Shown: positions 16,929 through 56,897 of the stretch, piece after piece | Numbering within the stretch: position 1 is the first letter of the stretch | Layout of the letters: every line of letters begins with the position of its first letter | Source of the DNA: Diphasiastrum complanatum | Lineage: Eukaryota; Streptophyta; Lycopodiopsida; Lycopodiales; Lycopodiaceae | Direction: 5' to 3' | Length of the DNA stretch: 64,000 nucleotides | Assembly: GCA_029204225.1 (NCBI GenBank) | Contig: CM055103.1 | Coordinates: 4,246,114 to 4,310,113, forward strand | Translations under genes and position numbers: made by a program | Notes under the pieces: generated by a model | The model's database searches: none | The model's input: only the letters and a program-made list of their open reading frames with translations | Told to the model about the DNA's origin: nothing

Positions 16929-19900
16929 CGCTCTGCTGGTGCGCTGCCCGCTTGCTGGTGCGCTGCCCGCCTGCTGGTGCGCTGCCCGCCCTACTGGTGC
17001 GCTGCCCGCCCTGCTAGCGCTGCTGCCTTCTCTCTCTCTTGCGCGCCCACCCGCCCTGCTGGCGCTGCTGTCCGCCCTGCTGGCGCTGCAGTGCTGACCT
17101 TCGCACCTGCCCTACGCTGCCCTGCGCTGGTCCTCCATCTGCTTACCGCCTCCTATGGCACCTAAGAAAAAGGAGGGTGTTCTTACACCTCCCTCCCTGT
17201 TGGACACCCCCCCATCACCGGTAGTGATGGAGGAGCCGTCTTCGGTGACAGAAACTATCAACATGGCTGCCATTGACTACACTCCTTCCAAACCTACCGA
17301 AAGTCTTTTTGCTTATGATCTTAGTTTTATCCGGCAAGAAATTCTTGGACTTAAGAAACAACTACACCTCTTTGAAGCTGAAAATAGCAAGTTAGCTAAG
17401 GATCTTTTTGGTGTCTCGGAACGTGTGGAGCAGCTTGAGCAAGAAAATATATATCTTAAGCAACGAATTGCAGAAAAAAGTGCCTTGGAGGAGACTTCCA
17501 ACAAGATCAATAGCTTGGAGAAACAAGTCGAGGAGACGAAAACGTGGGCAGCACTTTTCAAACCGGATGATATGGGCAGCAAACTCTCATCACTCGCAAA
17601 ACAGGTTGAAGAAACGACATCGATCCTTAAGCAAGGTAATCACTCTCAGATTTCATCTTTTCCGAAGGAAAACGATTTGGAGACAGTTTTGGGTGAACAA
17701 GCCAGAAGGGCCAAAAAAGCCTTTAACATTAGAGTAAGAGGCATTGCCAATGGTGGAAAACCGTTGGAAGAAGCTACGGATTTGCTCATTTCCAAGTTAT
17801 CTCATGTGGCTGACGGTTTTGATACTGCTTGGCGCAGTAAATTTGATGACAATGTTTTGTTTATCAAGTTCCGCTCGCTTTCACAACGCAATGCTGCCCT
17901 TCGGCTTAGGGCAAAGCTTAAAGGTACTTTCATTTATATGGATGATGACTTAACAAATACTCAATGGTTGGCAAGAAAAAAGATTATCCTTGAAGCGAAA
18001 GAGAAAGGGCAAAGGGTTGTTTTTATTGACGGGAAACCGAGATTTTTCGACCTTCCACAATAGGAACTAGGGGCCCCCGGATATAGAAGCTACCCGAGAT
18101 CCCCTACCAATTTGAGACTTGGCTTCTGGAATTGTAATGGTTTTTTATCTTCGTCATCAGCCGGAGACTTTGCTGATTTTATTAGAAAATGCGACATTTT
18201 GTTGTTGGCTGAAACTCATGAGTCCTTATATCATCCTCTTCCAAATATACAGGAGTACTCTTGGCATTCTGCTTTTCGTCCATTTGTTAGGGGAAAAACT
18301 TGTCGAGGATCTGGAGGAGTAGCTTGTTTATACAGAGACACCACAGTTCAGATGGTTAAACAAGATCCATACGCTCGCTATATTTGGTTACACATTATTG
18401 GCTCACTATTGGGATTACCTCAGGACATCTATATAGCTGTATGCTATTTTGCTCCACAGACCTCAGTGTTTGCTGAGTTTGGCGGGGACCCTTTTCAGGC
18501 TCTCTCAGATGATATTGCTATCTTTTCTCAGCAGGGTTCCATTTTACTAGCAGGTGATTTCAACGCCCGCACATGCTCTAGACAAACCGAATTTCATGCA
18601 GCTACGGATCTTCTCAGGCTTTACCCTTTGGATATGGGGCTAGACCGGGTATCACAGGATGCAGACACTCCAGCTACATCTTTCGGGGAGCAGTTGATCA
18701 CTCTAGCAGAGACACACGCTCTTGCCATTTTGAATGGCCTCACACAGTGGCCTTCCTCATCAGCATATACATGCTATCCTCATGGTGGAGGACATAGTGT
18801 GGTCGACTACTTCATTGGATCACCTGCTTTGATCTCTCACATTTTTGATTTCTCCATCACACCCCCTACCATTTCCGATCACTCACTCTTACACATCTCA
18901 CTTGGTCACATAACCTCTTCTTTGCAAATTTCTTGCTCTCTTCCCACTCATAAACGTATTCCTTTCACCCAATCTGGATTCACTAATTACACCACAATCT
19001 TATCCCAACTACTCGCTAACTTCCCGTTCATGGCACCAATTGACCAGCAAGCCACTTTTCTCTCTACATCCCTCTTAGCTGCTGCTTCCTCATCCTTCCC
19101 CACCAAAACGACATCATCTCACAGAAGTGTTCACAACAGATGGTATGATGCAGAATGCCGCTCTCTTCACAATCATGTGACATATGCCAGGTCACACTCC
19201 CCTGCCACACTCAAACAATGCCAGAAAGAATATCATAGAACCACCAGAACAAAGAAGATCAAGTACCTACAATCACTCTGCCAAAAAATGATCAACTCTT
19301 TAGATTCACCCTCCTCCTCTTTTTTCTGGAAACATTTCACCAGACACTCTTCAACATTGGCCCCCATAGCCATCGAATCCTGGATCGAGTATGCCACGGA
19401 GTTATATACCACGGACTCTCCTCCTACCTCACTCTCACCGAGACCTGACCACTGCTCACTTTTCACCCCTGACATGGTTGAAAACGCCATTAAACATGCC
19501 AAACTAAATAAAGCCACTGACTATGACTCCTTAAGTGTAGACTTCCTAAAGCCCGTAGCACATCTCATCTCCCCTTACATTGCTCATGTTTTTAACACAG
19601 CTGTTACTTCTGGTTTTCCTACGGCTTGGTGTACTAATATCCTTCACCCCATCCTCAAGGCAGGTGATCCCATGAATGTAGGAAACTACCGCACCATTAT
19701 GATTGGCCACACTCTAGCTAAGATATATGGCTCTATACTACAGACAGTCACTGGATCTTTTGCTGAAACTGAGGGTTTACACGCTATGGGTCAAGCTGGT
19801 TTCAGACCGGGATATTCTACTTCAGACCAGATCTTCATTTTGAGATGCATTATTGAGGAGGCTCGACATCGGAAACAGAGAATTTACTGTTGCTTTGTGG

Positions 19901-21849
19901 ATTTTCGCAAAGCTTTTGACTCTGTTCCACGACATCTTCTTTTCCAGAGACTGTCTTCACTTGGCTTTTCAGAGGATACTATTGCTGCGATCATTACTTT
20001 ATATGAGCGAGTCTTGGCACGTTTCAGAGATGGTAGTGGCTGGTCCTCACAGATACATTCTACCATTGGGGTGAAGCAGGGTTGCCCCTTATCACCCACT
20101 CTTTTTGCACTATATATAGATGACCTCGAGCGGATTATTCGCGAGGAAGGTGGAGAGGGCTGTCCCCTAGCAGACATTATTATCCCCATTCTCTTGTACG
20201 CTGATGATGTGGTTCTCCTCTCATCCTCTGCAGCTGGTTTACAGAGTCACCTTTCTGCTTTACATCACTTTTGCCAGCGTTGGGGATTGACGGTTAACCT
20301 TAAGAAGACTAAGATTATGGTGTTTAACACCAACAGACAGCATATGAGAGATGTGATTTTCTATTATGACGGGCTACCGATTGAGATCGTGACCTCCTAC
20401 ACCTATTTGGGAGTTCTTTTCTCTGGTCCGCTACTCACTTTTCGACCAGCAGCCACCGCCAGGCTCCGCAAGGGGCATACCGCTCTTGTGCATATGGAGA
20501 GATTTTGCTCTACTTATTATGTGCAGGATCCTGCTACCAGATGCCTACTATTTTCTGCTACTGTCTCCCCAGTTGTGCTATATTCGGCTGAGACTTGGTG
20601 CCCTGATTTATCACGCGATACATGGAGAGATCTTACTCGTATCCAGATTCTCATGCTCAGTAGGATAATCCGGGCTAAGCCCTCAGTACCACATGATATC
20701 ATACTAGCCGAGTTTGCTTCTCCTCCATTAGTTGTTGGTGCTATGTTTCAGATCATCACCTTTCTTCACAGGGTATCAGATCTAGATACCTCCAGATACA
20801 TTGTTGCTGCTCTCACTTCATCTTGTACCATTGCAGATCAGGGAGCCAAGCACTCTTGGTATCGCAGTGTCTCAGCCCTTCTTCAGACTTGGGGTTTATC
20901 CGCACTTGATCTTCCGAATGGAACCCATGCTTATATCAGACAGCAGATCTACCGGAGCTACATACGCACTATATGGTCACATCCTGATCCAGATAGGGTC
21001 AAGCTACATTATTATGGCACACATCTTTTACGGCTGGACGTTTCGGGCTTGCCTATTCTTCCAGTTTATCTTACACAGACGCTATCTTTTGGTCTGAGAT
21101 ATCGTATAGGACAGCTTCGAGTCTCTTCTCATCAGCTTGCTATCGAGACAGGTAGATACACAGACACTCCCAGATTGCAGCGGATATGTCAGCTTTGTTC
21201 TCTTCAGGAGGTGGAAGATGAGTTTCATTTCATCTTTCGCTGCCCAGTATACTATGAGATTAGAGGACGATACCATTGTTTATACCGAGATATTCCCCTC
21301 ACGTTGAGCTCCTTCCTCGAGTATCCAGATGCTAGATGTGTGGGTCTTCTTTTGAGAGAGATGTATATTTTACGAGCTTCACTTCTACCTACGCTCTCAG
21401 ATATGGATTCCAGTCAGGCTCACATTACTCAGTTCTTCCAGAAGCGAGACAGAGTGGATATTTCGGTTGCGGATTTTGACGTCCCCGTCCGAAGATCGAA
21501 GACACAGAGAGTTTCGGCTCGATCCAGTGCTACTAGATCTTCATACGCCTCCCACCAGCCTACATCACGACCCACTACTACCATCACTCATTACTTTCGG
21601 CTTGCTCGTAGCTAGTTTCCTCCGCGGAGCAGGTGGTTAAGCTCTTGCTTTGTACCCTCACCAGCTGGTGGTCAAGCTTGGATACTTTTTCTCTTAGAGA
21701 CAGAGAGATCGATATTTTAGTTTTAGTTTTACTGTCTTTTCATTGGTAAATAAGTCCTTATGCGGACAATGCTTCTCACATTTTGTACTCTCTTTTGTCT
21801 TATGTGCCCCTGGGCACCAAAAGACGTTAATAATAATAATTCTAATTCT

Positions 21850-55200: not shown

Positions 55201-56119
55201 TAAAACACATATAATTGCAACTGTGGAGCTACTGTTTGTTGCTAGCAGACCATGCAATATTCTCTAGAAAAACTATTCCCACTTCATCATATATACCTAC
55301 TTAGTCAATTGCAAAAGCCCACGGCCTGTTGTAAGGGCCTCCTCAGGGTTGCTGCTTACTGGAGCAGCTGTGTTCTCCAAAGCTTTACGCACAACATGCG
55401 GATCAATCGGCCATCCCTTTGCCTACAACACATATAGGGTATAAAACCAAGCCTCTTGTACGTTGCAACTAGTTTGCAATGACAGAAACGCCATATCTCA
55501 CCTTGAGTGCACTTAACACAAGAGCAACCCCCCCACATGCACACGGAGAGGCCATTGAGGTTCCGTTCATAAGCATACGCCTTTGCAATGTCCACTTTGG
55601 TACTGGTGCAACTGCACCTCCAGAAGCACTCAGATAGACACCCAAATCACCATCTGCAGTGGGTCCCCTACTTGACCTGGCAAGAATGAAGAATAAAAGG
55701 TCAGATTCTACAATTCAACTAAACTAGCTGCTTGTTTCTTCACAATAAAAAAAAAATGTCTAGCACAAAGGTGATCTGATGGGCTTCTCTTGCTTTACTG
55801 CATTCTGATTAGTGTTTAAAGACAAGAAAGTTTTATAAAAAAGAATGACACCCTAAAAACAGGCAATTAACATGAATTGAAACATAACAAATGATAAATG
55901 AAATGCAAATGGCATGTAGCGCTCAGTTCACCAGGTATATTGAAGCCCTTGAGTTGGAGGTTCCACCATCGAATGAGCATTAGCAGCCATTTCAGGAGAA
56001 ACATAGGCTCCAATGCCTATGATGCTAGATGATGTGCCACCCGGAGCACCAACTGTGCTTAGAGCTGGTCCATTATTTCCAGCACTGCTCACAAAAATAA
56101 CACCATGTTTATTCACCAC
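6982..56119 (-). CDS. TPP2: Tripeptidyl peptidase II (TPP2), partial gene, 22 exons placed
   Basis: TPP2 is a giant cytosolic subtilisin-family exopeptidase that removes tripeptides from peptides released by the proteasome. Known family members assemble into very large homo-oligomers. Exons in order on the minus strand: 56119-55932, 55676-55502, 55422-55301, 50789-50749, 50576-50518, 39773-39619, 39388-39210, 39095-38983, 38823-38653, 38152-38027, 28539-28439, 28345-28228, 28064-27985, 27823-27751, 27388-27303, 27187-27136, 8456-8319, 8194-8126, 7989-7897, 7532-7446, 7362-7264 and 7077-6982. Together they give about 807 codons. Every intron starts GT, ends AG and keeps phase. The conserved order seen is NNGPAL, GTSMASP, the central beta-rich domains ([22 protein letters not shown]) and the helical C-terminal part. 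Plant TPP2 is usually near 1,350 residues, so the N-terminal third and roughly the last 110 residues are missing. Assignment rests on remembered family sequence, not on a search. Confidence 0.93.
7264..7362 (-). CDS. TPP2: TPP2 exon VIEAADNVV
   Basis: 33 codons, [20 protein letters not shown] then [13 protein letters not shown], ending at a GTATGT donor. Matches the IIEAANEVV...DELARF helices. Confidence 0.95.
7446..7532 (-). CDS. TPP2: TPP2 exon [14 protein letters not shown]
   Basis: 29 codons, [20 protein letters not shown] then QDEERNYNE. Matches the EYPDYTPLLAKIL helix of plant TPP2. Confidence 0.94.
7897..7989 (-). CDS. TPP2: TPP2 exon [12 protein letters not shown]
   Basis: 31 codons, [20 protein letters not shown] then [11 protein letters not shown], matching the plant VRDTKIKFL...EEEERSEW helix. 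Acceptor tatgcag, donor GTACTA. Confidence 0.95.
8126..8194 (-). CDS. TPP2: TPP2 exon, charged helix AEEKSKEKG
   Basis: 23 codons, [20 protein letters not shown] then AEE, a Lys/Glu-rich helix preceding the conserved VRD(V/T)KIK segment. Acceptor tgatag, donor GTGCGT, both phase 0. Confidence 0.9.
8319..8456 (-). CDS. TPP2: TPP2 exon [17 protein letters not shown]
   Basis: Reads [20 protein letters not shown] and a variable Gly/Asn-rich stretch to [10 protein letters not shown] at a GTGATG donor. It corresponds to the GSMLVGEISYGKLS region. The phase-0 join to the exon 18.7 kb upstream is exact. Confidence 0.95.
8457..10395. other. TPP2 intron sequence, mostly unassigned
   Basis: AT-rich intron with no gene. 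A weak Copia RT-like scrap ([11 protein letters not shown]) can be read on the minus strand near 9560-9600. Nothing else was recognised. Confidence 0.5.
10396..12421 (+). pseudogene. 5'-truncated Copia pol (integrase end, RT, RNase H)
   Basis: Starts in the integrase C-terminus ([18 protein letters not shown], about 10417). RT follows with [20 protein letters not shown] (about 10980), [20 protein letters not shown] (about 11180), [14 protein letters not shown] (about 11290) and FVDD in place of the usual YVDD (about 11422). RNase H has [17 protein letters not shown] (about 11950) and [12 protein letters not shown] (about 12060). Frameshifts occur near 10900, 11340 and 11540-11600, and a stop near 11858. 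gag, protease, the integrase core and the 5' LTR are absent. It lies in the same orientation as its 3' LTR, inside the 18.7-kb TPP2 intron. Confidence 0.92.
12422..12820 (+). repeat. Copia 3' LTR
   Basis: A purine tract (CAAGAGGGAG) precedes TGTCAG, and the 399-bp segment closes with CGCGACA, giving TGTC...GACA ends. It contains GAATAAAAT near 12680 as a possible polyadenylation signal. No second copy exists in the window for comparison. Confidence 0.75.
12821..13179. other. Intron sequence, nothing recognised
   Basis: AT-rich intron, no coding or repeat match seen. Confidence 0.5.
13180..13305 (-). mobile_element. Short LINE RT scrap
   Basis: Minus strand reads [19 protein letters not shown] followed by EAKSRRLYN, aligning to [19 protein letters not shown] of the intact LINE. 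Only about 125 bp is preserved. Confidence 0.75.
13640..15430 (-). mobile_element. Scrambled LINE relic: ORF2 C-terminal half with an endonuclease piece inside
   Basis: Going down the minus strand: SYTYLGV and [10 protein letters not shown] (about 15400-15320), [15 protein letters not shown] to [17 protein letters not shown] then [15 protein letters not shown] (15118-14560). A 450-bp piece of endonuclease follows ([26 protein letters not shown]; about 14530-14070). The C-terminal region then resumes with [19 protein letters not shown] (about 14040-13960). In an intact ORF2 the endonuclease lies 5' of all this, so an endonuclease fragment now sits inside the zinc-finger region. Stops throughout. 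Confidence 0.8.
15431..16410. other. Probable U3 of gypsy-like 5' LTR plus intron flank
   Basis: No ORF of note. The stretch 16200-16410 (TTGGCCTTTGGCC, a TATA-like CTATAAG at 16406-16412) looks like an LTR promoter region leading into the repeat shared with 25117-25302. The LTR start could not be fixed. Confidence 0.4.
16411..16597 (+). repeat. 5' LTR R-U5 portion of a gypsy-like element
   Basis: About 187 bp, starting AGTAGGGAAACTG and ending TTTGTAACT, nearly identical to 25117-25302. It is directly followed by a tRNA-Met primer-binding site, which identifies it as the 3' part of a 5' LTR. Confidence 0.75.
16598..16610 (+). promoter_or_regulatory. Primer-binding site (initiator tRNA-Met)
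   Basis: TGGTATCAGAGCA, complementary to the 3' end of plant initiator tRNA-Met, abutting the 5' LTR. Confidence 0.85.
16853..16926. repeat. (TC)n microsatellite, 5' LINE junction
   Basis: Pure TC tract of about 74 bp in the gypsy leader, immediately before the LINE 5' UTR. A matching CT tract (21855-21881) follows the LINE tail. Confidence 0.95.
16927..17100 (+). repeat. Short tandem repeats in the LINE 5' UTR
   Basis: Four or more copies of a 19-20-bp unit, CTGCTGGTGCGCTGCCCGC with small variants, then GCTGGCGCTGC units. Repeated GC-rich monomers are common in LINE promoters; a promoter role here is inference. Confidence 0.8.
17155..18063 (+). CDS. LINE ORF1 protein
   Basis: 302 residues. 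The N-terminus is Lys/Pro-rich (MAPKKKEG). A long heptad coiled coil covers about residues 55-165 ([32 protein letters not shown]). An RRM-like region from about 190 ([12 protein letters not shown]) contains [20 protein letters not shown], and a C-terminal basic region includes [15 protein letters not shown]. This is the layout of L1-type ORF1p, a trimeric RNA chaperone that packages LINE RNA. There is no CCHC knuckle. Its TAG stop at 18061-18063 is in the same frame as ORF2. Confidence 0.85.
   Translation: MAPKKKEGVLTPPSLLDTPPSPVVMEEPSSVTETINMAAIDYTPSKPTESLFAYDLSFIRQEILGLKKQLHLFEAENSKLAKDLFGVSERVEQLEQENIYLKQRIAEKSALEETSNKINSLEKQVEETKTWAALFKPDDMGSKLSSLAKQVEETTSILKQGNHSQISSFPKENDLETVLGEQARRAKKAFNIRVRGIANGGKPLEEATDLLISKLSHVADGFDTAWRSKFDDNVLFIKFRSLSQRNAALRLRAKLKGTFIYMDDDLTNTQWLARKKIILEAKEKGQRVVFIDGKPRFFDLPQ
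18064..21615 (+). CDS. LINE ORF2: APE endonuclease and reverse transcriptase
   Basis: Open from the codon after ORF1's TAG to 21615. The APE-type endonuclease has [10 protein letters not shown] (18118), [14 protein letters not shown] (about 18557) and [10 protein letters not shown] (about 18880). RT follows with [30 protein letters not shown] (about 19900), [20 protein letters not shown] (about 20070), the catalytic YADDVVLL (about 20200) and [10 protein letters not shown]. The C-terminal part has [19 protein letters not shown], a CCHC-like motif (about 21190). All catalytic boxes are intact. The first ATG in this frame is at 18349, inside the endonuclease domain, so translation is unlikely to begin at an AUG of its own. 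Confidence 0.93.
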   Translation, partial: ELGAPGYRSYPRSPTNLRLGFWNCNGFLSSSSAGDFADFIRKCDILLLAETHESLYHPLPNIQEYSWHSAFRPFVRGKTCRGSGGVACLYRDTTVQMVKQDPYARYIWLHIIGSLLGLPQDIYIAVCYFAPQTSVFAEFGGDPFQALSDDIAIFSQQGSILLAGDFNARTCSRQTEFHAATDLLRLYPLDMGLDRVSQDADTPATSFGEQLITLAETHALAILNGLTQWPSSSAYTCYPHGGGHSVVDYFIGSPALISHIFDFSITPPTISDHSLLHISLGHITSSLQISCSLPTHKRIPFTQSGFTNYTTILSQLLANFPFMAPIDQQATFLSTSLLAAASSSFPTKTTSSHRSVHNRWYDAECRSLHNHVTYARSHSPATLKQCQKEYHRTTRTKKIKYLQSLCQKMINSLDSPSSSFFWKHFTRHSSTLAPIAIESWIEYATELYTTDSPPTSLSPRPDHCSLFTPDMVENAIKHAKLNKATDYDSLSVDFLKPVAHLISPYIAHVFNTAVTSGFPTAWCTNILHPILKAGDPMNVGNYRTIMIGHTLAKIYGSILQTVTGSFAETEGLHAMGQAGFRPGYSTSDQIFILRCIIEEARHRKQRIYCCFVDFRKAFDSVPRHLLFQRLSSLGFSEDTIAAIITLYERVLARFRDGSGWSSQIHSTIGVKQGCPLSPTLFALYIDDLERIIREEGGEGCPLADIIIPILLYADDVVLLSSSAAGLQSHLSALHHFCQRWGLTVNLKKTKIMVFNTNRQHMRDVIFYYDGLPIEIVTSYTYLGVLFSGPLLTFRPAATARLRKGHTALVHMERFCSTYYVQDPATRCLLFSATVSPVVLYSAETWCPDLSRDTWRDLTRIQILMLSRIIRAKPSVPHDIILAEFASPPLVVGAMFQIITFLHRVSDLDTSRYIVAALTSSCTIADQGAKHSWYRSVSALLQTWGLSALDLPNGTHAYIRQQIYRSYIRTIWSHPDPDRVKLHYYGTHLLRLDVSGLPILPVYLTQTLSFGLRYRIGQLRVSSHQLAIETGRYTDTPRLQRICQLCSLQEVEDEFHFIFRCPVYYEIRGRYHCLYRDIPLTLSSFLEYPDARCVGLLLREMYILRASLLPTLSDMDSSQAHITQFFQKRDRVDISVADFDVPVRRSKTQRVSARSSATRSSYASHQPTSRPTTTITHYFRLARS
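21804..21817 (+). other. 3' UTR hairpin of the LINE
   Basis: Perfect 6-bp stem GTGCCC/GGGCAC with a CT loop, 15-20 bp before the TAA-rich tail. Its position fits a 3' structure recognised by the LINE RT, which is known for some LINE clades. Confidence 0.6.
21855..21881. repeat. (CT)n microsatellite, 3' LINE junction
   Basis: CT tract directly after the LINE tail, counterpart of the TC tract at 16853-16926. Confidence 0.9.
22264..22504 (+). pseudogene. gag-like fragment of the gypsy-like element
   Basis: The ATG at 22264 opens an 80-residue frame, [15 protein letters not shown] then a helical stretch ([17 protein letters not shown]), ending in a TAG at 22502. Position after LTR, PBS and leader suggests the start of gag. 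Most of gag, including any zinc knuckle, is absent. Confidence 0.45.
22537..22990 (+). pseudogene. Ty3/gypsy aspartic protease, frameshifted
   Basis: Reads [19 protein letters not shown] (about 22655-22710), with the D-T/S-G active-site triad, then after a frame change [20 protein letters not shown] and AAWFSSLG (about 22826-22905), the downstream protease flap and DxxLG-type region. A frameshift near 22820 breaks it. No RT, RNase H or integrase follows in this element. Confidence 0.75.
22916..23788 (+). CDS. Open frame of unknown nature in gypsy-like element
   Basis: The first 20-30 codons continue the protease C-terminal region ([11 protein letters not shown]). After that a 290-codon frame runs through sequence I do not recognise ([19 protein letters not shown]-like, [12 protein letters not shown]). 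It lies where RT should begin. T-rich codon choice and lack of any polymerase motif argue that it may be non-coding filler. No function assigned. Confidence 0.3.
   Translation: MDLSQQTLSFTHVGQHHSLAGIDSQGDYQLVTGKQFMRSLPKAQDAALLSIQSTSVAASLSPFVGPLPQVDAPSDLQIVVVCLVPICLDSQILYSVVIPGFIDIQAVYLGGISTIAFAHTSDSPLGSVVGAVSSPLVSISPSLESVMADVPADFYGVLHGSTFDGSLAIGDQVVSSFALLHGSLLEVCEPPHDISTVPYMIHAPLALTVTHFPSEDICEMVTITYPGYLYAGIFLDEYTGILQSPCVCRYRFAAVHANAMDIWHSWLLRIAWFPFGPVDWCWFFHITDRL
23870..24961 (+). CDS. 363-codon open frame of unknown nature
   Basis: Unusually rich in Trp, His, Phe and Pro, with recurring IPW and HSW words ([35 protein letters not shown]), reflecting recurring DNA words such as GATACCTTGG and CATTCCTGG. 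No known domain. It occupies the pol position of the gypsy-like element. It may be repeat-derived sequence that happens to be open. Confidence 0.25.
   Translation: MAWVIPSVPATVCPGDLQIPCHFRLLHIAWSPMLRCHFVLVFRDHQVTLREFLLLSWIVFGDIAAIYFSIAHMCFDTHSQLHVDIDPMLATDVGNHVPRSSAFLLFLTCAPVYFGITLAASSDGSSDSPSVFGVSYDGLVCPYEVFLDEFFGYSFSVEASTISRFVAIVFMHHVYLDDALISWTFWSFWHAALLVIGALKVLCAIATSHSWALKIPWAFDHAGAHFSILAILCQDDLFMIHDSWHIACFSMLLQRACHPAYVPTPWCWSSDAAIFSWCTYITEFAHMVDGYVYDATIRDDCPSLCQFPYWLPVADALLPSRAFWIPWYDVPIFWANPLLPWALRIPWHSWLLLDLLLVHMLHI
24945..25115 (-). mobile_element. Copia RT N-terminal scrap, inverted
   Basis: Minus strand reads [20 protein letters not shown] and [16 protein letters not shown], the standard start of Copia RT. 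It is inserted immediately before the 3' LTR copy, in the opposite orientation to the surrounding element. Confidence 0.8.
25117..25302 (+). repeat. 3' LTR copy (partial) of the gypsy-like element
   Basis: Direct repeat of 16411-16597 with a handful of substitutions. The U3 part is missing, cut by the Copia scrap. Together with 16411 it bounds an element of about 8.9 kb, of which about 4.9 kb is the nested LINE. Confidence 0.75.
25303..26600 (-). mobile_element. Probable minus-strand LTR element relic (leader, PBS, LTR)
   Basis: GCTCTGATACCA at 25851-25862 is the reverse complement of an initiator tRNA-Met primer-binding site. The sequence right of it (25863 to about 26600) would be the 5' LTR, and 25303-25850 the leader. 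No pol code or LTR partner was found and the outer border is uncertain. Confidence 0.45.
26601..27135. other. Intron sequence, nothing recognised
   Basis: AT-rich intron next to the TPP2 exon at 27136. No feature seen. Confidence 0.5.
27136..27187 (-). CDS. TPP2: TPP2 52-nt exon [17 protein letters not shown]
   Basis: One base plus 17 codons, [17 protein letters not shown], flanked by tttctag and GTGATT. It aligns with the family segment VKEAFYLGPPTKDKLPK. It is the last exon before the 18.7-kb intron. Confidence 0.9.
27303..27388 (-). CDS. TPP2: TPP2 exon with SSIDGPITG
   Basis: Reads [20 protein letters not shown] then LKSTILAPG, ending GG|GTAATT (phase 2). It aligns with the LNLYSEPDGPITG region of the family. 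Confidence 0.92.
27751..27823 (-). CDS. TPP2: TPP2 exon [12 protein letters not shown]
   Basis: One base plus 24 codons: [20 protein letters not shown] then LDEK, ending AAG|GTGCAG. Matches the LRHENVELLEKL segment of plant TPP2. Confidence 0.95.
27985..28064 (-). CDS. TPP2: TPP2 exon [12 protein letters not shown]
   Basis: Reads [20 protein letters not shown] and TLRLYI, ending AG|GTAGTA in phase 2. The Arg codon is completed by the next exon. Confidence 0.95.
28228..28345 (-). CDS. TPP2: TPP2 exon [19 protein letters not shown]
   Basis: Begins with one base finishing a Thr codon, then [20 protein letters not shown] and [19 protein letters not shown], ending AAG|GTATTG. This is one of the most conserved TPP2 segments. 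Confidence 0.96.
28439..28539 (-). CDS. TPP2: TPP2 exon [12 protein letters not shown]
   Basis: Acceptor ggctgcag, then [20 protein letters not shown] and [10 protein letters not shown], ending AC|GTGAGT (phase 2). Corresponds to the conserved VPYQPIDAQL region. Confidence 0.95.
28613..28864. mobile_element. hAT-type MITE copy B1 (left end diverged)
   Basis: Contains the family body motif GGGCAATATGGGAATCA (about 28672) and ends with repeated AGAAACGCGTTTCT-type words and GGGCAACTATGATA. The left end is too diverged to place. It abuts the TPP2 exon at 28439-28539. Confidence 0.65.
28859..28885. repeat. (AT)n between elements
   Basis: AT dinucleotide tract directly after the CTATGATA end of copy B1. 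Confidence 0.9.
28886..28956. mobile_element. Short element with CGGACG words
   Basis: About 70 bp made of GGTCCGGATGCGGACG and CACGTCCGGAC-type words between an AT tract and the TATCATAG start of the next copy. The same word type occurs at 37541-37700 and 54672-54850. Confidence 0.5.
28957..29292. mobile_element. hAT-type MITE copy B2, 336 bp
   Basis: Starts TATCATAGTTGCAC and ends GGAAAACTATGATA, so the terminal TATCATAGTT is inverted. Both subterminal regions are packed with AAACGCGTTTCTG words. The body has GGGCAATATGGGTATCA (29061). AT repeats flank it, so an 8-bp duplication of TA units cannot be resolved. Confidence 0.8.
29290..29355. repeat. (AT)n tract
   Basis: About 50 bp of pure AT plus a short ATTATTATATAT extension. 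Confidence 0.95.
29356..29580. mobile_element. Element with GGCACCTGTGCC words
   Basis: About 220 bp between two TA tracts. Both halves consist of CACGGCAC, GGCACCTG and GTGCCGTGG words, separated by T-rich and A-rich tracts, ending ATATGATA. Same design as the neighbours but a third word type. Confidence 0.65.
29586..29912. mobile_element. hAT-type MITE copy B3, 327 bp
   Basis: TATCATAGTTAC at the left, GGGCAACTATGATA at the right, AACGCG/TTTCTG words near both ends, and the body motif GGGCAATACGGATATCA (29709). About the same length as B2. Confidence 0.8.
30100..30540. repeat. 84-bp tandem array with alternating subtypes
   Basis: CACATGGGCACTGTGGAGG recurs at about 30184, 30268, 30352 and 30437. 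Alternate units differ: one type has GGGAGCAATACATCC, the other GGGATCAGCACATGG, so the higher-order period is about 168 bp. Because 84 is divisible by 3, most frames stay open; I do not regard these as genes. Confidence 0.9.
30797..31096 (+). pseudogene. Truncated accessory ORF in hAT derivative
   Basis: [20 protein letters not shown] and [16 protein letters not shown], then [20 protein letters not shown], closely matching the minus-strand protein at 36479-36844. It loses the Arg/Gln-rich C-terminus where GGTACC-type terminal sequence cuts in at about 31035. Confidence 0.75.
31217..31264. repeat. (AT)n tract
   Basis: Pure AT microsatellite shared by the 3' end of the 1.3-kb derivative and the 5' end of the long hAT element. 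Confidence 0.95.
31636..35953 (+). pseudogene. hAT-superfamily transposase, four exons, one in-frame stop
   Basis: Exons 31636-33509, 33624-33969, 34063-34224 and 34327 onward; introns are GT-AG and phases agree. A BED-type zinc finger lies at about residues 10-60 ([20 protein letters not shown]). A Pro/Ser-rich linker follows, then a DUF659-like catalytic region ([41 protein letters not shown]). TWWTMFG follows, then the hAT dimerisation motif [20 protein letters not shown]. The tail is acidic, then Pro-rich, with AT-hooks ([18 protein letters not shown]) and an acidic end. Breaks: a TAG at 33889-33891 just before the TWW segment, and a frame change near 35100-35150 that could be a frameshift or an unrecognised intron. 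Confidence 0.88.
36479..36844 (-). CDS. Accessory charged coiled-coil protein of the hAT element
   Basis: 121 residues from the ATG at 36844, chosen because the homologous copy at 30797 starts at the same MAE. An in-frame upstream ATG at 36886 also exists. Very rich in Arg, Glu and Gln. A helix at about residues 10-45 ([20 protein letters not shown]), a Pro-rich linker, [20 protein letters not shown], a second Arg/Ala-rich helix ([19 protein letters not shown]), and an acidic end. No known domain recognised. It converges on the transposase gene, 0.5 kb away. Conservation in two copies with the frame kept suggests a real gene. Role unknown; DNA or transposase binding is speculation. Confidence 0.65.
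   Translation of the reverse strand: MAERIPPKPEGEARRKLEEDIRRHNERHRKQEADIREMLRQTRQRNPEPEPPAPAVDPVPAVELDLDEQIGMNFTRRQLIMVRERAARRRANQEAARANREAEQERQNNAPDEGEESVEDQ
37020..37260. repeat. Inverted counterpart of the 84-bp tandem array
   Basis: About two units containing TGCCCATGTGCCTCTGTAC and CATGGTCTGCTCACCC-type sequence, the reverse complement of the units at 30100-30540. This fixes the relative orientation of the two elements as opposite. Confidence 0.8.
37495..37540. repeat. (AT)n tract
   Basis: Imperfect AT repeat after the right end of the long hAT element. Confidence 0.9.
37541..37700. mobile_element. Short element with CGGACG words
   Basis: Starts after the TA tract with GCAGACCCCGGGCGC and CGCACGTCTGGAG, T-rich then A-rich centre, and ends in CGGACACGTCCGC and GCATCCGGGGGTCGG. 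Mirrors the design of 28886-28956. Confidence 0.5.
37701..38026. other. Intron sequence, nothing recognised
   Basis: AT-rich intron preceding the TPP2 exon at 38027. Confidence 0.5.
38027..38152 (-). CDS. TPP2: TPP2 exon [11 protein letters not shown]
   Basis: Reads [20 protein letters not shown] and ends KAVLTK at an AAG|GTACTG donor. It matches the EFHG...LDGSEA stretch of plant TPP2. The following intron (28540-38026) contains the hAT chain. Confidence 0.92.
38653..38823 (-). CDS. TPP2: TPP2 exon with [13 protein letters not shown]
   Basis: Reads [20 protein letters not shown] and then [20 protein letters not shown], a family signature in the central domain. Ends GAG|GTATGT in phase 0. 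Confidence 0.95.
38983..39095 (-). CDS. TPP2: TPP2 exon GHIERRF
   Basis: Completes the Gly codon, then [20 protein letters not shown] and [14 protein letters not shown], ending at CAG|GTACC in phase 0. Confidence 0.95.
39210..39388 (-). CDS. TPP2: TPP2 exon with APWRGPLFR
   Basis: Acceptor tttgcag, then [19 protein letters not shown] and [19 protein letters not shown]. Ends SFTPG with the Gly codon split after one base at a GTACTG donor. APWRGP is characteristic of the TPP2 central domain. Confidence 0.95.
39619..39773 (-). CDS. TPP2: TPP2 exon [12 protein letters not shown]
   Basis: Reads [20 protein letters not shown] and continues through [12 protein letters not shown] to an AA|GTAAAT donor (phase 2). 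The intron upstream of it is 10.7 kb and hosts the complete Copia element at 40092-46025 and two hAT MITEs. Confidence 0.95.
40087..40091. repeat. Target-site duplication ACCAT (left)
   Basis: ACCAT directly before the 5' LTR, repeated at 46026-46030 directly after the 3' LTR. Confidence 0.9.
40092..41260 (+). repeat. Copia 5' LTR
   Basis: 1,169 bp, TGTTGG...CCGACA ends. Contains a cluster of GTCGCC/ACACTGTCGCC words near 40250-40510. Confidence 0.95.
41261..41272 (+). promoter_or_regulatory. Primer-binding site (initiator tRNA-Met)
   Basis: TGGTATCAGAGC immediately after the 5' LTR. Confidence 0.9.
41461..42467 (+). pseudogene. Copia gag and protease, interrupted
   Basis: The ATG at 41461 starts [20 protein letters not shown], a typical Copia gag start, but a stop falls near 41598 beside a short direct duplication (GTAAAACCTGAGGACGAC). 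An open frame resumes at 41772 with [16 protein letters not shown], the CCHC knuckle [14 protein letters not shown] (about 42155) and the protease motif [12 protein letters not shown] (about 42328). It ends early at 42467. Confidence 0.9.
42657..43692 (+). pseudogene. Copia integrase, frameshifted
   Basis: Zinc-binding region [13 protein letters not shown] (about 42730), [14 protein letters not shown], catalytic part [12 protein letters not shown] and [14 protein letters not shown] frameshift near 43070 changes frame, then [34 protein letters not shown] and [13 protein letters not shown]. Apart from that shift the region is well preserved. Confidence 0.92.
43780..44843 (+). pseudogene. Copia RT (C-terminal half) and RNase H
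   Basis: Begins abruptly at [20 protein letters not shown], so the RT fingers are deleted. [10 protein letters not shown] is intact (about 43848). RT continues through LGIQIHRD and a stop near 44008. RNase H contains [37 protein letters not shown] and [12 protein letters not shown], with one frame change near 44320. The element cannot supply its own RT. Confidence 0.92.
44841..44850 (+). promoter_or_regulatory. Polypurine tract
   Basis: TAAGGGAGAG directly before the 3' LTR. Confidence 0.8.
44851..46025 (+). repeat. Copia 3' LTR
   Basis: 1,175 bp, starts TATTGG (the 5' copy has TGTTGG) and ends CCGACA. Carries a small duplication near 45255-45300 absent from the 5' copy. Confidence 0.95.
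46026..46030. repeat. Target-site duplication ACCAT (right)
   Basis: Matches 40087-40091. Confidence 0.9.
46200..46870. repeat. Tandem duplication, two diverged units of about 335 bp
   Basis: Units about 46200-46540 and 46541-46870 share CCTTCAATAGACATTTT, TAGAAATTCTTTGT, CACCATAC and CCCTTGAAGA-type blocks in the same order. Non-coding, within a TPP2 intron. Confidence 0.75.
46895..47000. mobile_element. Fragment with GAACCGTACGGTTC words
   Basis: GAGAACCGTACGGTTC, AGAACCGTGGTGAACC and CACCGTAC words followed by AATTAATTAATTAAT and a T-run. The same word type and AATTAA tract occur at 54535-55000. Confidence 0.55.
47035..47255. repeat. ATCATCTGT minisatellite
   Basis: About 220 bp of imperfect tandem GAAATCATCTGT/ATCATCTGTCAA units. 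Non-coding. Confidence 0.85.
47783..47790. repeat. 8-bp target-site duplication CATAGATG (left)
   Basis: Repeated at 48327-48334 on the other side of the MITE. An 8-bp duplication is the hAT hallmark. Confidence 0.75.
47791..48326. mobile_element. hAT MITE F1, 536 bp
   Basis: Flanked by the 8-bp direct repeat CATAGATG. Left part CCAATGCTGCCGGAATG with GATCCGG words, then T-run and GCCAATATGGGCATCA (47886). The right part is filled with GATCCGGATCG, TTTTTGCAG and GCAAATCG words, ending CTGCTGCAA. It has no coding capacity. Confidence 0.82.
48335..49639. other. Intron sequence, nothing recognised
   Basis: AT-rich, no coding match or clear repeat. Confidence 0.5.
49640..49647. repeat. 8-bp target-site duplication CTTTATGC (left)
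   Basis: Perfect match to 50250-50257 across the MITE. Confidence 0.85.
49648..50249. mobile_element. hAT MITE F2, 602 bp
   Basis: Flanked by the perfect 8-bp repeat CTTTATGC. Terminal inverted repeats CCAAGTTGCAG and (inverted) CTGAGTTGCAG agree at 9 of 11 positions. The left part has CCGGAATGCGATCCGGG and the body motif GCCAATATGGGTATCA (49730). The right part has GGATCGC, CGATCCG and GCAGCGGATC words. The body is shared with F1 and the relic at 4006. Ends about 270 bp from the TPP2 exon at 50518. Confidence 0.9.
50518..50576 (-). CDS. TPP2: TPP2 59-nt exon
   Basis: After acceptor ctctcag the exon reads [19 protein letters not shown], the well-conserved RGIYLRE segment of plant TPP2, and ends at GAG|GTTAGA in phase 0. 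The next exon starts with the expected Trp of WTVQV. Confidence 0.92.
50749..50789 (-). CDS. TPP2: TPP2 41-nt micro-exon
   Basis: The acceptor ctattttctacag precedes one base plus 13 codons and a trailing G, reading [13 protein letters not shown]. This aligns with the family's FYQIKV-type beta strand. Phases join exactly to both neighbours. A 4.5-kb intron separates it from the previous exon. About ten family residues (AYEYLKQF-like) between the two exons are unaccounted for, so another micro-exon may be missing. Confidence 0.72.
50790..54330. other. TPP2 intron sequence, largely unassigned
   Basis: No gene recognised on either strand. A short diverged tandem duplication with GCTCCTCTTGTTCTTCT (51788-51851 and 51866-51940) is present. 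An 86-codon plus-strand frame at 52927-53187 has no recognisable content. A missing TPP2 micro-exon may hide here. Confidence 0.5.
54338..54435. mobile_element. Fragment of an F-type hAT MITE end
   Basis: CTGCAGCCGATCGCAATCTGC, GTTCCGGATCATGG and related words like those at the right ends of F1 and F2. No body motif, so a fragment only. Confidence 0.55.
54535..55005. mobile_element. Element with GAACCGTACGGTTC words, interrupted by a CGGACG-word element
   Basis: 54535-54660 and 54900-55005 consist of AGAACCGT, GAACCGTGGTACGGTTC and CGGTTCAC words with AATTAATTAA tracts between, forming two inverted halves. Between them, 54672-54850 carries GCGCGTCCGGG, GGACGCGTCC and CGTCCGGCG words plus a T-rich centre. 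Its borders show TACAGACC on the left and CACAGACC on the right, a 7-of-8 match that could be its target duplication. Confidence 0.65.
55010..55300. other. Intron sequence, nothing recognised
   Basis: AT-rich intron downstream of the exon at 55301. Confidence 0.5.
55301..55422 (-). CDS. TPP2: TPP2 exon after the catalytic domain
   Basis: Reads [20 protein letters not shown] and later [11 protein letters not shown], matching the end of the protease domain. The only donor that avoids the in-frame TAG just downstream is AA|GTAGGT, giving phase 2. In relatives a short AYEYL-type segment follows here; it is absent from this exon. Confidence 0.85.
55502..55676 (-). CDS. TPP2: TPP2 exon with catalytic Ser
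   Basis: One base completes the Trp codon, then [20 protein letters not shown] and, further on, [11 protein letters not shown], the subtilase nucleophile motif. It ends VALVLSALK at a GTGAGA donor. Only 255 bp separate it from the previous exon, unlike the multi-kilobase introns downstream. Confidence 0.94.
55932..56119 (-). CDS. TPP2: TPP2 exon: subtilase core with oxyanion-hole Asn
   Basis: The exon starts in phase 0 with [12 protein letters not shown] after an acceptor ending tgcag. It carries [17 protein letters not shown], in which the Asn of NNGPAL is the expected oxyanion-hole residue, followed by [14 protein letters not shown]. It ends with two bases of the Trp codon of GLQYTW at a GTGAAC donor. 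It is the most 5' exon I can place. The catalytic Asp and His exons were not found in 56120-64000. Confidence 0.93.
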
Positions 56120-56508
56120 CTGCACCCAGAGGACACGCCAGTATTCATATGAATATCACAATCATGTACAAACACATGAGACCAGAATACTCATGATTAT
56201 GAAACTATTAATAACTTTGCAGAAGCAATAACATAAGTTCCAAAGAGAGAACAACCAAAGCAACGGAACAAAGAAAATAGGCACGGACACAAGCGTCTCA
56301 GCCCAGATTATTCATTTTTTTTACGGAAATGGATAAATGTATCTTTTTTTTATGATGGCCAATTGCTCACCTTCGATGGTGTTACATATCTACATGCATG
56401 TATCTTGTATTATGAAATGATTTGTGGGCTGTGCATTTCACTAGCTGGCATTGTATTGTGCTAGGATGTATATAGTGAATGAATATCTATTGGCATTATG
56501 TCTATTAT
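56120..56508. other. TPP2 intron flank, nothing recognised
   Basis: AT-rich sequence upstream (gene sense) of the exon starting at 56119. Confidence 0.5.
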
Positions 56509-56662
56509 TGTGAAAAGTTTTTTACACTTGGTGTGTGTGGTCGGGCTAGGGATTGAACATAGGACCCCTCCCATTCCGGTGGGGTGCTCTACCATTGAGC
56601 TACCCATCCATTTGTGTTCCAAGAGTGTTGAGCAAGGGCTATAGCCTTGACACTTTCTAACA
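56509..56662 (-). repeat. TRIM 3' LTR
   Basis: 154 bp, minus strand TGTTAGAAAGTGTCAAGG ... CTTTTCACA. Highly similar to 56736-56892. Confidence 0.92.
56538..56609 (-). other. tRNA-like sequence in TRIM 3' LTR
   Basis: 72 nt that fold as a cloverleaf: acceptor GGATGGG with CCCGACC (6 of 7 pairs, one being G-T), D-stem GCTC/GAGC with loop AATGGTA, anticodon arm with loop CCGGAAT (two mismatches), variable GGGTC, T-stem CTATG/CCTAG with loop TTCAATC, discriminator A. The A-box region TAGCTCAATGG and B-box-like GTTCAATCC are present. U33 is replaced by C and some stems are imperfect, so a working tRNA is doubtful. A TTTT run lies about 25 nt downstream. Confidence 0.8.
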
Positions 56663-56675
56663 CTCCCCCTCAAGG
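56663..56675 (-). promoter_or_regulatory. TRIM polypurine tract
   Basis: Minus strand CCTTGAGGGGGAG directly before the 3' LTR. Confidence 0.85.
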
Positions 56676-56718
56676 CATAGCCCTTTTTAGCTACCGCCCA
56701 CCAAGACCACACCCACAA

Positions 56719-56735
56719 CCATGGCTCTGATAAAA
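56719..56735 (-). promoter_or_regulatory. TRIM primer-binding site
   Basis: Minus strand TTTTATCAGAGCCATGG directly after the 5' LTR; complementary to the initiator tRNA-Met 3' end apart from the first bases. Confidence 0.85.
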
Positions 56736-56892
56736 TGTGAAAAGTTTTTTACACTTGGTGTGTGTGATCGGCGGGCTAGGGATTGAACATAGGACCTCCC
56801 CCATTCTGGTGGGGTGCTCTACCATTGAGCTACCCGTCCATTTGTGTTCCAAGAGTGTTGTGCAAGGGCTATAGCCTTGACATTTTCTAACA
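56736..56892 (-). repeat. TRIM 5' LTR
   Basis: 157 bp, minus strand TGTTAGAAAATGTCAAGG ... CTTTTCACA. Confidence 0.92.
56768..56839 (-). other. tRNA-like sequence in TRIM 5' LTR
   Basis: Again exactly 72 nt. Same D- and T-arms as the other copy. The anticodon arm CCCCA-CCAGAAT-GGGGG pairs at four of five positions. The acceptor is weaker (GGACGGG with CCCGCCG, five pairs). The anticodon position would read AGA here and GGA in the other copy. Confidence 0.78.
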
Positions 56893-56897
56893 ATTAT

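Follow-up and report, generated by a model that had tools for sequence, protein, structure and literature searches.

A complete 384-bp TRIM lies at 56509-56892 of the window, the whole 64-kb stretch of Diphasiastrum complanatum DNA that was analysed here. Its LTRs, 154 and 157 bp long, enclose a 73-bp internal region (56663..56735, minus strand), and the element is flanked by a perfect 5-bp duplication of ATTAT, with the left copy at 56504..56508 and the right copy at 56893..56897. The TGTTAGAA start, the primer-binding site (PBS) of the initiator-Met type and the purine tract identify the minus strand as the sense strand. In this orientation the 157-bp copy at 56736..56892, which has 3 bp inserted in the T-arm, on its 3' side, is the 5' LTR, and the 154-bp copy at 56509..56662 is the 3' LTR. 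The PBS TTTTATCAGAGCC, placed with the help of other copies, and the polypurine tract GAGGGGGAG occupy the two ends of the internal region (56723..56735 and 56663..56671, respectively, both minus strand). We take the PBS to pair with the initiator tRNA-Met at its 3' end. An earlier note on this DNA, which gave no strand, had reported the same coordinates, element and LTR lengths, ATTAT duplication, PBS and polypurine tract, and all of these were correct by sequence. It had also described the element as complete and recently mobile; the TRIM is indeed complete, and recent mobility is not demonstrated for this copy, as 7 of the 154 bases that align between its two LTRs are different.

Each LTR contains a tRNA-like body on the minus strand, at 56768..56839 in the 5' LTR and 56538..56609 in the 3' LTR. 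Within these bodies, TAGCTCAATGGT (56821..56832 and 56591-56602) and TGTTCAATCCC (56779..56789 and 56549-56559) are presumably the A box and the B box, assigned by the usual definitions of these motifs. Upstream of the bodies are a TATA within CTATAG (31-34 bp away; 56870..56873 and 56640-56643) and a CAA (3-5 bp away; 56842..56844 and 56612-56614), and a TTTT that is a possible Pol III stop is found at 56740..56743 in the 5' LTR and 56513-56516 in the 3' LTR, all on the minus strand. As for other features of the window, subtilase pieces are encoded on the minus strand at 55297-56155, with Pfam Peptidase_S8 detected in two of three exon-like pieces, and we assume that they belong to tripeptidyl-peptidase II. 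The TRIM is located just upstream of these pieces and is perhaps intronic. A long open LINE-type frame with endonuclease and reverse transcriptase was found at 18112-21615, and its best database matches share about 41% identity.

Both tRNA-like bodies gave full-length matches to RF00005, at 36.6 and 36.2 bits; the gathering score is 29, and the E values over the whole window are 0.00049 and 0.00062. These were the sole Rfam matches at the gathering threshold within the 64 kb. ARAGORN, run in its bacterial setting, called no tRNA in the 64-kb window, and the cloverleaf was not favoured by single-strand minimum-energy folding of the window body. Other copies of the same family (hereafter, family 1) matched better, with all 28 LTRs at 14 other loci above the cut-off at 39.7-61.4 bits, which indicates that the window element is a decayed copy. 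These 14 loci are the 18 left from the first 20 after removal of the window copy and its duplicate, less four further duplicates, and include one more duplicate (L018, of L012). The tRNA interpretation in the earlier note rested on a 72-nt cloverleaf parse, whose place and length agree with the full-length matches in both LTRs, and the covariance scores exceed the gathering score in the window and at the other loci. When 137 padded family-1 LTRs were given to ARAGORN, 62 were called, 58 of these as tRNA of unknown type. The motif TAGCTCARTGG was present in 102 of the 137 LTRs, and 100 had a B box of the GTTCRA type, showing that many family-1 copies are damaged.

Pattern searches of the genome revealed 391 places matching a 35-nt internal pattern of family 1, 599 matching its LTR upstream segment and 342 matching its tRNA core (each with up to three mismatches), and none of the reversed controls gave a match. 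In the same genome, a 204-aa protein encoded next to a tRNA gene on contig C15 (locus L023) is identical along its full length to O6H91_15G080000 of Diphasiastrum complanatum. The element is thus multi-copy, and not the single-copy accident that the earlier note had allowed for. Family counts were drawn from these patterns because the search with the full 384 bp, which yielded at least 41 matches, scored 40 of 661 candidates. Family-1 copies for comparison were taken from the first 20 loci of that search and the first 100 exact internal-pattern matches listed. Removal of duplicates reduced 98 copies to 84. One that was missed (L069, a duplicate of L068) is still among them, and also within the 137 LTRs and the 54 LTR pairs considered below. 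Young copies are over-represented in the samples of both families described here, as these were drawn from the exact matches listed first. The 5' LTR was complete in 60 of the 84 copies, truncated in 11 and absent from 13, and a perfect 5-bp duplication flanked 19 of the 38 elements whose two outer ends fall within the piece.

The PBS of family 1 starts with TGGTAT in 18 of the first 20 copies and is exactly TGGTATCAGAGCC in 14. That of the window copy starts with TTTTAT, a form shared among these 20 copies only with its duplicate, L001, which lies about 163 kb away and over 3384 bp is identical to L002 in reverse complement. A cluster of family-1 LTR-segment matches was detected at C1:94.6-99.8 Mb (L128-L132), where the five pieces read contain a 5'-truncated TRIM in two sets with shared flanks; the shared flanks indicate that it probably spread via a larger duplication or repeat.

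A second family was recognised from its tRNA part. The A box followed by GGTTCGA occurred at 33 places in the genome, and the 16 that were fetched all lie, by reading, inside TRIM LTRs, two of family 1 (L185 and L193) and 14 of a family (hereafter, family 2) with LTRs of about 144 bp, an internal region of 116 bp and a PBS of the same type as family 1. The internal pattern of family 2 matched 928 places in the genome, and its reversed control none. The 14 loci, which had been selected by the A-box/B-box pattern, contained 22 matches above the Rfam cut-off. In a sample of 40 of the first 100 exact matches listed, not de-duplicated, a perfect 5-bp duplication was found for 16 of 24 elements with both ends visible, so both families include copies with target-site duplications, which the earlier note had named as support for its element.

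Comparison of one copy from each family showed that 58 of the 73 positions of the tRNA bodies are identical, with a z value of 13.8 versus shuffles, and that U3 and U5 reach z values of 3.0 and 2.6. With this difference and with stem pairing kept, the tRNA part is the most shared portion of the two families. Based on column-majority letters and omitting the anticodon arm, the acceptor, D and T stems have standard pairs at 15 of 16 sites in family 1 and at all 16 in family 2. The families differ at four pairs, each of which is a standard pair in family 2, and at one of the four both sides have changed, from G-C to A-T. We also compared the bodies with 12 distinct tRNA sequences out of 30 tRNA loci, a partial set, in search of a named donor. 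Thr was the closest, with 46 of 72 positions identical for family 1 and 49 over the 73-nt body for family 2, which is too weak for it to be named.

Within family 1, the non-CpG variability of the tRNA body was 0.034, versus 0.035 for the rest of the LTR, a comparison of low power if most differences represent post-insertion decay. The test proposed in the earlier note, that the tRNA part should be conserved better than the LTR remainder, was therefore borne out between the families and not within family 1. For the A and B boxes the picture is mixed, as they are common to both families and, inside family 1, conserved no better than the LTR remainder. Distinct substitutions at paired sites in family 1 kept 12 pairs and broke 30, and no covariation was seen at these sites.

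Indels in family 1 were concentrated in the T-arm. Columns 100-124 of the LTR alignment (56766-56793 and 56539-56563 in the window) hold 59 of 108 indel events in the 137 LTRs, or 40 of 83 distinct events, with the A-run at columns 136-144 left out of the counts, and the length difference between the 157- and 154-bp LTRs of the window copy is a 3-bp indel in this hotspot. T-arm indels were also found in 7 of a separate set of 20 LTRs (15 independent by shared flanks). Of 54 elements with both LTRs, 28 had no T-arm indel, 14 had one in a single LTR, 12 had different indels in the two LTRs and none had the same indel in both. As they are never identical in both LTRs and their number grows with LTR divergence, the T-arm indels arose after insertion. 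In family 2, the T-arm region held 1 of 17 indel events (69 LTRs; Fisher p 1.3e-4). The LTR pairs of family 2 have a mean divergence of 4.0% (31 pairs) and those of family 1 a median of about 4.6% (54 pairs), with 0.023 and 0.044 substitutions per site from the reference LTR, respectively. We considered the hotspot as a mark of TFIIIC/Pol III binding and rejected this, as a general B-box effect is unsupported by the single event in family 2. Something particular to the family-1 sequence, for example its hairpin, is the more likely cause, and single-strand hairpin energies alone did not explain the hotspot. One permuted copy (L073, with its duplicate L080) has a left LTR piece that begins at column 108 and a right one that ends at column 98, a layout as if a one-LTR circle had been opened in the T-arm.

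The boundaries of the internal region were informative on possible mobilisation. In 12 of the 13 family-1 copies without a TRIM LTR before the PBS, the upstream DNA ends in CA, as LTRs do. L104, counted among these 12, is an inverted TRIM dimer: two family-1 internal regions stand head to head on either side of a short palindrome formed by LTR ends. Four of the 84 family-1 copies (L088, L112, L118 and L119) continue from the 3' LTR into another PBS and then into non-TRIM letters, of which 15-20 are visible per piece. In family 2, 4 of 40 copies have no TRIM LTR end before the PBS, the upstream DNA again ends in CA, and two of the four (L203 and L205) have identical upstream letters. At L185, L189 and L195, as at the four copies with a second PBS, the TRIM unit or LTR meets foreign DNA, either LTR-like or internal, precisely at the PBS. 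In the left flank of L003, a whole family-1 TRIM is found in antisense at the LTR/PBS border of what appears to be another miniature LTR element. The junctions at the PBS suggest recombination with other LTR elements, and they fit template switching between the RNAs of a TRIM and another LTR element in one particle; recombination between chromosomal copies could also have generated them. The CA-ended upstream DNA and the second-PBS copies are compatible with reverse transcription beside other LTR elements. A search for an autonomous partner of the two TRIM families found none.

Taken together, these features favour a TRIM that is mobilised in trans and whose tRNA-derived part is a putative Pol III-type promoter, a reading that we consider probable though far from certain. 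RNA polymerase III, directed by the A and B boxes, would start near the CAA upstream of the tRNA-like body and stop at the TTTT close to the end of the 3' LTR, and the product would be an RNA of about 325 nt, whose two ends would carry the same tRNA-like sequence as a redundant R region. The proteins of another LTR element would reverse-transcribe this RNA from an initiator-Met tRNA primer and then integrate it, so the tRNA-like part would act as a promoter and not as a working tRNA. One point in favour is that two TRIM families that otherwise differ have only the tRNA body strongly in common. A published survey of tRNA genes in flowering plants (PMC11700998) gives frequencies of 22-32% for an upstream TATA, 78-82% for a CAA within 50 bp and 67-72% for T runs downstream, and the CAA and TATA positions in the window LTRs agree with the plant tRNA genes as described there (PMC11700998). 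Support from the TATA, CAA and T-run falls short of proof, because such motifs are common. A TTTT was found near the LTR end in 119 of the 137 family-1 LTRs and in 5 of the 69 family-2 LTRs; as it is absent from the other 64, a simple Pol III stop does not suit family 2. Also against Pol III transcription are the tRNA body being as variable as the LTR remainder in family 1, the excess of broken over kept pairs, the folding that favours no cloverleaf and the many damaged copies.

The lack of TTTT in those 64 family-2 LTRs and the unexceptional conservation of the tRNA body inside family 1 would make sense if the TRIM were transcribed by Pol II and the tRNA-like body were a passenger, left by insertion of a SINE or tRNA into an ancestral LTR. 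The CTATAG is about 30 bp upstream of a possible start, and the word 'tRNA' is absent from the main text, in its accessible part, of the plant TRIM survey of Gao 2016 (PMC4717578). A passenger does not readily explain why a homologous tRNA body is present in two families with weak alignment elsewhere in the LTR, nor the paired acceptor, D and T stems in both, and we regard this explanation as possible and rather unlikely. The pairing itself could alternatively mean that the tRNA-like fold is used, in end processing, packaging or primer placement, and that structure and promoter are both selected. The near-complete standard pairs in both families, the four differing pairs that stay standard in family 2 (one changed on both sides), the top copies at 57-61 bits and the 62 ARAGORN calls among 137 LTRs are in line with this, whereas just two families were compared, the family-1 substitutions break 30 pairs and keep 12, and the anticodon arm is irregular, making selection on the fold improbable. 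A chance likeness, or an ordinary tRNA gene within an unrelated repeat, might have been proposed from the roughly 36 bits of the window copy and the failure of ARAGORN to call either body, but is already refuted by the copy data, namely the 28 of 28 LTRs above the gathering score at 14 other loci and the 22 matches at the 14 family-2 loci that had been chosen on their A-box/B-box pattern.

A more novel reading, which we regard as possible and rather unlikely, is that the tRNA body is an exchangeable promoter cassette in these two lycophyte TRIM families, which differ in U3, U5 and internal region, possibly swapped by template switching. The switching would take place in shared particles, by the same process as may have formed the foreign-LTR junctions at the PBS.

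TRIMs bearing tRNA-derived LTR sequence have been described as Helenus (Kojima 2024, PMC10886601), and the statement in the earlier note that no well-described TRIM class has a tRNA gene in its LTR has thus been overtaken. In that study, TRIMs shorter than 1000 bp were used, with 5-bp duplications for plants and fungi, Selaginella moellendorffii is the sole plant listed, Diphasiastrum is not mentioned in the main text, and Pol III transcription of Helenus is expected, without validation (PMC10886601). Helenus is also briefly mentioned in the accessible part of a 2026 meeting report (PMC12859917), and among the papers listed by our literature search of an open-licence library there was no report of it in Lycopodiales. 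Based on structural criteria, and with Helenus-1_SMo compared by description only, both Diphasiastrum families are of the Helenus type, in a second lycophyte order (Lycopodiales), and do not form a new class. Like Helenus, they are shorter than 1000 bp and encode no proteins, each of their LTRs includes a tRNA-derived part with A and B boxes, their internal region opens with a PBS and closes with a purine tract, and they generate 5-bp target-site duplications, as stated for plants and fungi by Kojima 2024. They differ in size, with LTRs of about 153 and 144 bp and internal regions of 73 and 116 bp, compared with an LTR of 120 bp and an internal region of 85 bp in Selaginella. The informative additions are the second family and the tRNA cassette common to both.

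Other known elements share some of these features. Cassandra TRIMs likewise have small-RNA-derived sequence in a plant TRIM LTR, but it is 5S rRNA in Cassandra and tRNA in the window element; neither 5S rRNA nor a ribozyme, including the hammerhead of retrozymes, was matched at the Rfam gathering thresholds in the 64-kb window. We know of no small-RNA gene in the LTRs of SMART and Wukong TRIMs. These are similar in being very short non-coding LTR elements, and tandem forms have been reported for TRIMs. Like the window element, tRNA-derived SINEs have A and B boxes within a part derived from tRNA, their head, but they are not known to have LTRs, a PBS or a fixed 5-bp duplication, all of which are present here.

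These results extend the range of tRNA-bearing TRIMs in plants to a second order of lycophytes. The 391 and 928 internal matches of the two families, within one genome, provide a tractable set for the question of whether LTR elements of plants can use Pol III. As the LTRs score up to 61.4 bits, the tRNA-gene counts of such genomes may be inflated.
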